43,041 nucleotides of DNA, taken from NCBI GenBank assembly GCA_903857165.1, contig CAIODU010000339.1:1-43041 (forward strand), given 5' to 3'. This document shows positions 10,856-15,849 of the stretch, piece after piece. Positions within the stretch are counted from its first letter, which is position 1; each line of letters starts with the position of its first letter. The notes under the pieces were generated by a model. It was given only the letters and a program-made list of their open reading frames with translations. It was not told the origin of the DNA and searched no databases. Source of the stretch: an uncultured Methylococcaceae bacterium. Lineage in GTDB: Bacteria; Pseudomonadota; Gammaproteobacteria; Methylococcales; Methylococcaceae. The translations under genes were made by a program, and so were the position numbers.

Positions 10856-13690
10856 ATGGACACCATTTCAATCAGAGGGGCACGTACCCACAACCTAAAA
10901 AACATCGACTTGGATCTGCCAAGGGACAAGCTGATCGTCATCACGGGTTTGTCGGGTTCGGGCAAGTCTTCGTTGGCTTTCGATACCATTTACGCCGAGG
11001 GTCAACGGCGTTATGTGGAGTCGCTGTCCACCTATGCCCGTCAATTCTTGTCGGTTATGGAAAAGCCGGATGTGGATCACATAGAAGGCTTATCCCCTGC
11101 CATTTCCATAGAGCAGAAATCCACCTCCCATAATCCCCGTTCCACCGTCGGCACCATCACCGAGATTTACGATTACCTTCGCCTGCTGTTTGCCCGGGCC
11201 GGAACGCCGCGCTGCCCGGACCATGGGGTTTCCTTGGAGGCGCAGACCATCAGCCAGATGGTCGATGGCGTGATGGCCCTGCCGGAGGATTCCCGGTGGA
11301 TGCTGCTCGCACCGGTGGTCAACGAACGCAAAGGCGAACATGTGCAAGTGCTGGAAGAATTGCGCGGACAAGGCTTCATCCGCGCCCGCATCGACGGCGA
11401 GGTTTACGAGTTGGACGAGCCGCCAAAACTGGATTTGAAGAAGAAGCACACCATTGAGGTCATCGTTGACCGCTTCAAGATTCGTAGTGATTTGGGGCTT
11501 CGATTGGCGGAATCCTTCGAGACGACTTTGCGCCTGGCCGAGGGCTTGGCCTTGGTGGTTTCGATTGACGATGCAAAACAGAGTCTGGTGTTTTCGGACA
11601 AGTACGCCTGCCCCCATTGCGGCTATTCTTTGAGCGAACTGGAACCCCGCATCTTTTCTTTTAATAATCCCAAGGGCGCGTGCCAAAAATGCGATGGATT
11701 GGGCGTGAAACAATATTTCGATCCCCGCTTGATTGTCCACAGCCCGCAGCTTAGCCTGGCCGGTGGGGCGGTGCGCGGATGGGATCGGCGCAATGCCTAT
11801 TATTACCAGATTATCTCTTCGCTGGCGGACCATTACGGCTTTGACTTGGAGCAGCCGTTCGAGAAATTACCGCAAGCGGTGAAGGACGTGATTCTTTATG
11901 GCAGTGGCAAAGAAACTATTCCCTTCAAGCACCTGAACGCACGGGGCAGCTATGATATGCGCTTCCATGCGTTCGAGGGCGTCATCCATAATATGGAAAG
12001 GCGCTACCGGGAGACCGATTCCAGTCTGGTGCGGGAAGAATTGACCAAGTATATGGGTGGCAAGCCCTGCCCAGACTGCGAGGGTACCCGCTTGAACAAA
12101 GGCGCCCGCCATGTGTTTGTGGCTGAACGCAACTTGCCGGAGTTGACCCATTTGCCGGTCCGGCGCGGGCTGGATTTTTTTGATGAGCTGCAATTGCCGG
12201 GCCAGCGTGGCGAAGTGGCGGCGAAAATCGTCAAGGAAATTCGCGAACGGATGCGGTTCCTCGTCAACGTGGGTTTGGATTACCTGACGCTGGACCGAAG
12301 TGCCGACACGCTTTCCGGCGGCGAGGCTCAACGCATCCGTCTGGCCAGCCAAGTCGGGGCGGGGCTGGTGGGTGTCATGTATGTGCTGGACGAACCCTCC
12401 ATCGGCCTGCACCAACGCGACAATGAGCGCTTGCTGAAGACCTTGATACGACTGCGCGACATTGGTAATACAGTGATTGTGGTGGAACACGACGAAGAAG
12501 CCATCATGGCCGCCGACCATGTTGTGGACATAGGCCCCGGCGCGGGGGTTCACGGCGGACAAATCGTAGCACAAGGGACTCCACGGCAAATCTTGGAACA
12601 TGCCGATTCGCTGACCGGGCAATACCTTTCCGGTCGGCTGGAGATTGAGATTCCCGCCCGGCGCAACCATAGTGACGAGGGAAACGTGCTGCGACTGGTC
12701 AATGCCACCGGCAACAATCTGAAAGGGGTTGATGCAGCTTTCCCCGTCGGACTGTTCACCTGTGTCACCGGCGTTTCGGGTTCCGGCAAATCAACGCTGG
12801 TCAACGACACCTTGCACAAATTCGCCGCCCGCGAGTTGAACGGTGCGAGTGCGGCCCCCGCCCCTTGCGAAAAAATCGTAGGGCTGGAATTGTTCGACAA
12901 AGTGGTGGACATTGACCAAAGCCCCATCGGCCGGACGCCGCGTTCCAACCCGGCCACTTATACCGGGTTGTTCACCCCCATCCGCGAATTGTTCGCCGCG
13001 ACGCCGGAGGCGAGGTCACGCGGCTATACGCCGGGACGCTTTAGCTTCAACGTCAAGGGCGGGCGTTGCGAAGCCTGTGCGGGCGATGGCGTCATCAAGG
13101 TGGAGATGCACTTTCTGCCGGACATTTTTGTCCATTGTGATATTTGCAAAGGGAAACGCTACAACCGGGAAACCTTGGAAATCCGTTATCGCGGCAAGAA
13201 CATCGCTGAAATTCTGGGAATGACCGTGGAGGAGGCCTGCGCGTTTTTCTCGGCGATACCCAATGTCCACCGCAAGCTGCAAATGCTGATGGAAGTCGGC
13301 TTGAGCTATATCACCTTGGGTCAAAATGCCGTGACCCTATCCGGCGGCGAAGCCCAGCGCGTCAAACTCGCCAAGGAGCTGTCCAAGCGCGACACGGGCA
13401 ATACCTTATACATCCTTGACGAACCGACCACGGGGTTGCATTTCCACGACATCAAACAATTATTGAAAGTGCTGCACCAATTGCGCGACCACGGTAACAC
13501 GGTAGTGGTGATCGAGCATAATCTGGATGTCATCAAAACCGCCGATTGGATTATTGACCTAGGCCCGGAAGGCGGCGACGGCGGTGGACGGATCATTGCC
13601 GAAGGCACGCCGGAGCATGTGGCGGCGAACCCGGCCTCACATACGGGGAGGTTTTTGAAAAAGGCGTTGGGGAGGGGCAAAGAATGGTAA
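10856..13690 (+). CDS. uvrA: excinuclease ABC subunit A
   Basis: A 944-residue UvrA of normal length with two ABC ATPase halves. The first Walker A is GLSGSGKSS at residues 31-39 and the second is GVSGSGKST. Both halves carry LSGGEAQR signatures followed by DEPSIGLH and DEPTTGLH. Zinc modules are CPHCGYSL...CQKCDGLG in the first half and CEACAGDG...[10 protein letters not shown] in the second. UvrA dimers find bulky DNA damage and load UvrB in nucleotide excision repair. It appears to be transcribed alone. Confidence 0.98.
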
Positions 13691-13774
13691 AGCTAAGTTT
13701 TTTGATAAGGGATAAAATGAGGTTGTTACTGTTCCCGTTTACAATATATCATTATATAATATTTGGATTTTGAT

Positions 13775-14572
13775 ATGACTGATTATAAATGGAATCCTAT
13801 TAGACCTTTGTCAGAGCAAGATGGTGTAATTGATCTTGCATTTATACGACCACTTTACGATTCATGGCGAATATCTGAAAAACGACTTAAAGAATCTAGC
13901 AGAGATAACTTACGCGAGTTTAACAATCGCCTTGTTCGTAGACTGAGCATCGAAACTGGTATCTTAGAAAGGCTATATGACCTAGATAGATGCACAACTG
14001 AAGCATTGATAGCAATGGGATTTGTCGAAGACATCGTGTCACGTTCCAGCACTGACATAGAACCATCGCGTTTGATCGATATTCTCCAAGACCAAGAGGC
14101 GGCGATTCAGCTTGTTTTGGATTGCATCGCCAATAAGCGTCCTCTAACTAAATCCGTACTCCATGAACTCCATATTCTTGAGGGTGGGCCAGATCATGAG
14201 AATTCACATTGGTACAAGTATGAGGTGGTAGCTTCTGCCAAGGATGCAGGTAAATTCGCCAATTTCTCAGAGCATCACTATTTTGTGAAGGCATCAATCC
14301 GTGCCGAACGTGAACAACTTGTGTTTGTCGTATCCTTTCACCATGTCGGACGTGAATTGTCAGGAATTATTGAGGTGACAGCCTTCGCAAAGTTGGTATC
14401 GTTTGAGGGTTCTGAGGATAGGCATTCGGTTTCAGATAGTTTCTTTGTGTGTTCACTGGAACCGTTCGTTTTTACTCATCAAACCGATGTGAAGTTTGTA
14501 GAGGCAGCATTTACACGTTGGATAGATGCTTCTCTCGCCATCGCAGTGAAAGAATATGGTGATCGGCTTTGA
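13775..14572 (+). CDS. Fic-like protein lacking the catalytic core
   Basis: From ATG 13775 the protein has 265 residues. Residues ~40-125 (IETGILERLYDLDRCTTEALIAMGF...EAAIQLVLDCIANKRPLTKSVLHELHIL) look like the N-terminal region of Fic AMP-transferase proteins. The second half (FVVSFHHVGRELSGIIEVTAFAKL...SLEPFVFTHQTDVKFVEAAFTRWIDASLAIAVKEYGDRL) looks like the C-terminal part of the same family. The expected middle, with HPFxDGNGR, is absent, so no AMPylation is predicted. Both matches are from memory. The gene is clearly more AT-rich than its neighbours and is preceded by TATAAT at 13755-13760, which suggests recent acquisition. It is an open frame, so a non-catalytic protein may still be made. 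Confidence 0.5.
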   Translation: MTDYKWNPIRPLSEQDGVIDLAFIRPLYDSWRISEKRLKESSRDNLREFNNRLVRRLSIETGILERLYDLDRCTTEALIAMGFVEDIVSRSSTDIEPSRLIDILQDQEAAIQLVLDCIANKRPLTKSVLHELHILEGGPDHENSHWYKYEVVASAKDAGKFANFSEHHYFVKASIRAEREQLVFVVSFHHVGRELSGIIEVTAFAKLVSFEGSEDRHSVSDSFFVCSLEPFVFTHQTDVKFVEAAFTRWIDASLAIAVKEYGDRL

Positions 14573-14892
14573 ATTGTATAGTACGAGTTCAAGCCTCACC
14601 GTTTGCGTCGAAAGCAAGAAATTACGCAAGTTGAGACTCAGATTTTTCACCTAGTTATCCACTGCTACGTTGACATTGGCGATTGACACTGGAAGATCGC
14701 CTGCAATTCAGCGGCTTACCTCTGAGTCAAATGCTATAATCTATAAATATCAACAGCTTATAAAATGTCGGTTGGTTTGCTTTGATTAGATACAGCCAAT
14801 GAAAAATCCAGAAAAACTTGAAAATAATCTTGGAAATCGGCGAAACTCACAAAGTTATCCACAGCTTTGTCCATGAATTATGGGGTATGTTT
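14573..14892. other. AT-rich spacer with two DnaA-box-like sites
   Basis: No gene is evident. TTATCCACA (14855-14863), a perfect DnaA 9-mer, and TTATCCACT (14655-14663) lie exactly 200 bp apart. The stretch 14735-14770 is very AT-rich. Two boxes are too few to call an origin. 'tggggt' at 14880-14885 is the likely ribosome site of the next gene. Confidence 0.35.
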
Positions 14893-15849
14893 ATGCATAA
14901 AATGACCGGTATCGCTTCCGTAAACCGGGTGTTCATCGTTGGATGCGGCGATATAGGCATACGGGTCGCCTTGTTGGAGCAGGCAGCGGGACGACAGGTC
15001 ATCGCCTTGGCCCGTTCGGAAACTTCCACGCACAGGCTGGCGCAACATGGAATTGAACCTGTCGCAGGCGATCTGGATCATCCCGGCTCCTTGCTTGAAC
15101 TGCCAAGCACTGAGGTGGTGTATTACTTTGCGCCGCCTCCTTCAGAGAGTGATGGCGACCCAAGGTTGGCAAGTTTGCTTGCTGCTTTGGACAAAAACTC
15201 CCTGCCTCGCAAGTTGGTCTATATCAGCACCAGCGGTGTTTATGGTGATTGCGGGGGTGAGTGGGTGGATGAAGACTGGCCGATGAATCCCCGCTCTGAC
15301 CGTGCGCGACGGCGTGCGGCGGCGGAAAACCGGCTTTTGGAATGGTCCCGGCTTCGTGGGGCCGATGCGGTGATCCTTCGCGTCCCCGGCATCTATGGCC
15401 CCGGCAGGTTGCCCGTTGAACGCATCCGGCGCGGTGTTCCGGTGGTGCGGGAAGACGAGTCGCCATGGAGCAACCGCATCCATGCGGACGATCTGGCGCA
15501 AGCGTGTGTCCTGGCGGCACTCCGGGGAAGGGCGGGAGGGGTTTATAATGTCAGCGATGGCAATCCGACCACGATGACGGATTATTTTTTCCGTGTCGCT
15601 GATTTGCTTGGCCTTCCCCGCCCCCCGTCCATTTCAATGGAGGATGCCCGGCTTACCCTTGGGCCGGGCATTTTGTCGTTTCTGGAGGAATCCAAGCGCT
15701 TGGACAATCGGCGGATGCTGGAAGAATTGGGGGTGGAGTTGCGTTACCCTATGCTGGACTGCGGCCTGCCTGCCTGTCTTGTGCAACCTGCCGATTCCCC
15801 CCTGTCTGGCAGCGTTCGCCAATCCGCCGCCGGGCATCGGGGAGGGTGA
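14893..15849 (+). CDS. YeeZ-like NAD(P)-dependent epimerase/dehydratase
   Basis: An atypical extended short-chain dehydrogenase/epimerase. The Rossmann motif is FIVGCGDIGIRVALLEQAAGR. It also has STSGVYGDCGGEWVDEDWP and ILRVPGIYGPGRLP, the layout of E. coli YeeZ. The classical YxxxK pair is not evident. That fits this subgroup, whose substrate is unknown. I prefer ATG 14893 (MHKMTGIASVNR, 318 residues) because tggggt is placed correctly before it. The track's TTG start at 14818 adds a tail with no family support. Confidence 0.7.
   Translation: MHKMTGIASVNRVFIVGCGDIGIRVALLEQAAGRQVIALARSETSTHRLAQHGIEPVAGDLDHPGSLLELPSTEVVYYFAPPPSESDGDPRLASLLAALDKNSLPRKLVYISTSGVYGDCGGEWVDEDWPMNPRSDRARRRAAAENRLLEWSRLRGADAVILRVPGIYGPGRLPVERIRRGVPVVREDESPWSNRIHADDLAQACVLAALRGRAGGVYNVSDGNPTTMTDYFFRVADLLGLPRPPSISMEDARLTLGPGILSFLEESKRLDNRRMLEELGVELRYPMLDCGLPACLVQPADSPLSGSVRQSAAGHRGG

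Follow-up and report, generated by a model that had tools for sequence, protein, structure and literature searches.

The gene at positions 13,775–14,572 of the window (the whole stretch of 43,041 nucleotides analysed here, from an uncultured Methylococcaceae bacterium) raises the question of how a Fic-type gene came to be without its catalytic core, and whether its shortened product still acts. An earlier note on this DNA described two halves resembling the parts that flank the Fic core in longer Fic proteins, and proposed either an in-frame deletion product or a stand-alone regulator. In our view the gene is most probably a recently disabled, functionless remnant of a horizontally acquired fic gene, the core of which was lost by one in-frame deletion. 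Its parts are as follows:

13775..14572, plus strand: core-less fic-type gene, 265 aa plus stop, both halves of which match 493-aa Fic proteins
13775..14173, plus strand: N half, residues 1–133, the all-helical N-terminal region of the Fic subfamily in predicted models
14171..14173, plus strand: deletion junction, where a single CAT is kept in the window, from alignment with relatives
14174..14569, plus strand: C half, residues 134–265, a domain of helix, five-stranded sheet and helix, 71–79% identical to the four closest relatives

When the genomes of the order to which the host belongs were searched with the 265-aa protein, one close match was returned, in genome G151, where residues 1–138 match at 72% and residues 130–265 at 68% within one open frame, 657 nt apart. 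The E value against G151 is about 1e-61 for each half, which excludes chance similarity. This relative (P0002, L011/L019) spans 493 aa from the matching Met, carries an intact core, HPYQDGNGRLAR (HPYQDGNGR), and shares 298/408 bases (73%) and 280/388 bases (72%) with the window gene over its two ends. Among the best 80 of 233 relatives taken in an N-half scan of genome contigs, the closest are L017 (77% in the N half, 79% in the C half) and L018 (77% and 78%), and both halves are 71–79% identical in the four closest; the identity of the N half to P0002, L017 and L018 is 74–77%. Thus, the resemblance of the halves to the flanks of a Fic core is borne out, and neither half is without similarity to Fic proteins. 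The source of P0002/L019 is labelled as a Methylomagnum ishizawai MAG, that of L017 as a Rhodocyclaceae MAG and that of L018 as a Sulfurisoma MAG, and many further relatives are labelled as Acidobacteriota.

The full-length members of the subfamily have the same order of parts and the same start region as the window gene, but contain in addition a 228-residue Fic core and linker with the motif HPYQDGNGRxxR. The model of a full-length relative (mean pLDDT 88.6, pTM 0.60) matches the folds of 3CUC, FICD and SoFic, with BT_2513 (3CUC) as the best match, whereas the window protein has no Fic fold. Its 265 residues correspond to both termini of a 493-aa Fic protein, fused in frame near residue 133/134; the earlier note had placed the join near residue 127. 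Compared with P0002, L018, L019 and L020, 228 codons (684 nt) are absent, which correspond to the complete Fic domain and the helical linker. Neither HPFxDGNGR, also reported as missing in the earlier note, nor the wider active site HPFx[D/E]GNGRxxR occurs in the open reading frame. With all catalytic residues and the ATP-binding core gone, transfer of AMP by the product is impossible. Judged by its sequence, the 265-aa protein is therefore a derivative of the Fic family (PF02661), since its halves share common descent with intact Fic proteins, and not an enzyme of that family, since both the active-site motif and the Fic fold are missing.

Because the core is wholly gone, the remnant is missed by Fic-domain libraries: the whole 265-aa protein matched no family in Pfam or NCBIfam and no PDB entry by sequence, and a search of plasmid and phage collections with the remnant returned no match. 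A typeIV Cas11 match in the domain libraries (Pfam, NCBIfam, PADLOC), with an E value of 0.0097 over 44 residues, is weak and was judged to be due to chance. The predicted model of the remnant is only moderate (pLDDT 76.6, pTM 0.54), and its CapZ-like Foldseek matches, with a query TM below 0.3, were set aside. Promoter and terminator scans gave results at chance level.

In a multiple alignment with L017, L018, L019 and L020, the window gene has one clean gap, located beside H133. L018 presents a CAT triplet at both edges of the segment lost from the window (TTACAT on the left side and CGCAT on the right), which fits a deletion at microhomology, the true parent sequence not being at hand. The N-half scan, to which viral contigs added one locus, covered 81 loci in total, and both halves were located in 71 of these, where they are separated by 682–922 nt, compared to about 15 nt in the window. 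Core-less homologues, which the earlier note had proposed to look for in other genomes, number zero among these 71 loci (from the best 80 of 233 relatives plus the viral one), and no core-less match was present in 311 genomes of the order or 369 of the class, the latter sample yielding only long Fic-type frames of 508–551 aa. An intact HP[FY]x[DE]GNGR within a frame longer than 450 aa is present at 69/81 loci; the others are interrupted, altered at the motif or cut by contig ends. The viral locus, L097, is a distant full-length Fic. Within the subfamily we also observed two catalytic motif substitutions, HPYQDGKGR in place of HPYQDGNGR in the long member L056, and GNGS in place of GNGR in L091.

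Trees of the N half and of the C half both group the window gene with L017, L018 and L019 (support 0.94 and 0.98). The presence of both halves in one four-member clade indicates one ancestral gene rather than a fusion, and one deletion in one lineage. An essential part has thus been lost relative to intact orthologues in a single lineage, as is expected of a pseudogene, and the first of the two proposals, an in-frame deletion product, agrees with the intact relatives, the clean 684-nt gap, the shared clade and the single occurrence. It is highly unlikely that the core was dropped from the contig during assembly while the full gene exists in the organism: although the assembly is a draft of 428 contigs, the sole shared edge sequence seen is CAT, which is too short for an assembler join, the junction contains no run of N, and no orphan core of the subfamily occurs elsewhere in the contigs.

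The surroundings of the gene bear on its origin and comprise the following:

10856-13690: uvrA, upstream of the core-less gene
13691..14650, plus strand: approximate insert with the fic remnant, its ends not exact to the base; G027 and G029 lack it between uvrA and the epimerase-like gene
14818-15849: epimerase-like gene, downstream, its start at or after 14818

In these two genomes, which belong to the same genus, the site is empty, and a single contig carries the two flanking genes as neighbours. The ancestral spacer resumes at about 14650–14654, and parts of it are recognizable in G025, G027, G029 and G030; the fic gene is therefore part of a roughly 0.95-kb insert. The gene is AT-rich, as had been noted, with a GC content of 42.7% (36% at third positions) compared to 53.5% in the window. 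The host genome contains neither a full copy nor an orphan core of the subfamily, so that relocation of the core within the genome was rejected, and the full Fic gene that the earlier note had proposed to look for here is absent as far as the subfamily is concerned. Six other PF02661 matches are present (on C95, C362, C267, C102, C75 and C56), none of them of the subfamily; the best match beyond the gene itself, C102 (45% over 75 aa), carries its own SxxxEG motif. Those on C75 and C56 cover no more than the end of the profile and are possibly partial. The second Fic of the genus (G030, P0003) was rejected as the parent, being a distant paralogue with 24% identity.

We suggest that a single-gene Fic protein of about 493 aa was acquired horizontally into the uvrA–epimerase spacer, and that its layout would have comprised N-terminal helices with a probable inhibitory helix, the Fic domain, a helical linker and a C-terminal α/β domain. 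Subsequently, 684 bp would have been lost in one in-frame deletion, probably at the CAT microhomology, through slippage or illegitimate recombination. Upstream of the epimerase-like gene we observed, in addition, a 31-bp block (14843–14873) around ACTCACAAAGTTATCCACAGCTTTGTCCA, with a DnaA-box-like TTATCCACA. It is about 90–94% identical in other genomes of the genus, with the surrounding spacer near 70%; a close copy is present in 7/7 genus genomes and a second copy elsewhere in most of them. A second TTATCCAC is located at 14655–14662.

Whether the remaining protein could still act depends in the first place on its N half, where one motif and one altered codon stand out:

13955..13969, plus strand: TGILE, residues 61–65, candidate inhibitory helix motif (S/T)xxxE, from alignment of homologues
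13991..13993, plus strand: codon 73, Cys, where 68/69 intact relatives have Gly, from alignment

Within TGI[LI]E, T61 and E65 are invariant in 69/69 intact relatives and both are kept in the window. The residue that follows E65 is Arg in 49/69, Gly in 16/69, Asn in 3/69 and His in 1/69 of these relatives, with Arg in the window and in the closest group, and the full motif (S/T)xxxE(G/N) is matched exactly in 19/69. Its likeness to this motif makes TGI[LI]E a probable inhibitory helix. Class II Fic proteins such as SoFic (3EQX) and human FICD have the (S/T)xxxE inhibitory motif in the N-terminal part, to which TGILE of the window protein may correspond, although the class II motif continues with Gly or Asn, where Arg follows the Glu in the closest relatives of the window gene. 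Class I antitoxins of the VbhA type also resemble the window protein in that the inhibitory-helix motif occurs without a catalytic core. The antitoxin VbhA docks onto the active site of VbhT and switches VbhT off. However, VbhA is a dedicated antitoxin encoded beside its toxin, whereas the window protein is a truncated class II-like Fic, with uvrA and the epimerase-like gene rather than a cognate Fic toxin as its neighbours. Nor do the full-length relatives have a conserved partner gene beside them: the widest neighbour clusters were discarded as shadow ORFs or broken pieces of the fic gene itself, and each of the others covered at most 6 loci.

We are aware of no trans inhibition by a class II N-terminal region on its own, and we regard it as very improbable that the shortened protein acts in this way, its TGILE helix docking on the active site of a Fic enzyme, whether incoming or resident. 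Such an activity would be consistent with the two retained invariant residues and the open frame, with the supply of the same (S/T)xxxE(G/N) Fic inhibitory motif from a separate protein by class I antitoxins (PMC3667792), and with the existence of cross-regulation between Fic proteins (PMC5651007), but it is opposed by the Arg after the Glu, by the lack of core-less homologues among the loci and genomes described above, and by the host genome, which offers no Fic of the subfamily and in which the best match is equipped with a motif of its own. It is likewise very unlikely that the deletion turned a self-inhibited Fic into a free trans-inhibitor with an immunity-like role, blocking incoming fic genes of the same mobile subfamily by means of the inhibitory helix that it kept. 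Activity of the shortened protein, if present, would show how a self-inhibited Fic enzyme can give rise to a class I antitoxin in a single step. Of the stand-alone regulator proposed in the earlier note, the conserved motif and the open frame remain as permissive features, but the loci and genomes covered contained no core-less homologue, the host genome no full-length Fic of the same subfamily and the surroundings of the full-length relatives no conserved partner gene, and selection on the shortened form was not detectable.

Across the family the C half is conserved, and its predicted structure is of moderate to good confidence (pLDDT mostly 75–89). Its α/β domain matched no solved or Pfam domain and had no relative in the viral contigs; no stand-alone C-half gene was present in the 311 order genomes, where this half is always attached to Fic proteins. 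Apparently, the domain is undescribed and occurs only with Fic in the genomes examined. Its conservation and predicted quality might be taken to indicate that the domain, jointly with the N half, serves as a decoy or an independent binding protein for the parental Fic's target or ligand, which we consider very unlikely given its constant attachment to Fic, the lack of a domain match and the pTM of only 0.54 for the whole remnant.

Selection on the remnant can be gauged from the sites that are invariant in relatives, at 3/61 of which the window departs (G73C, R181Q and M199I), compared to 0–2 departures in most comparable relatives. The tip branch of the window gene is of average length (rank 17 of 35). 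Its frame is open, where neutrality along the entire tip branch would predict about 2.8 stops (P(no stop) about 0.06). From the open frame and the average branch it follows that either the deletion is young relative to the branch or the remnant is constrained; a recent deletion and continued selection account for these observations equally well. In a codon model, omega for the window ranged from 0.04 to 0.22 among the triples; for the whole branch, which includes the time before the deletion, neutrality was rejected in 1/3 triples (4.7 log units), and in 2/3 the window branch cannot be separated from neutral because synonymous sites are saturated. For the disabled remnant that we favour, the frame would still be open by chance and through its recent age. 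Such a remnant would illustrate cleanly how an in-frame deletion can disarm a fic gene of sparse distribution, and would caution that products of this kind escape domain libraries. Interrupted copies also occur elsewhere in the same fic subfamily (L023, L039, L052, L053 and L055), and together with altered copies suggest, from their sequences, that decay is frequent there. Stops or frame changes are found among these five and L058, the latter being an altered copy with an insertion of roughly 54 codons.
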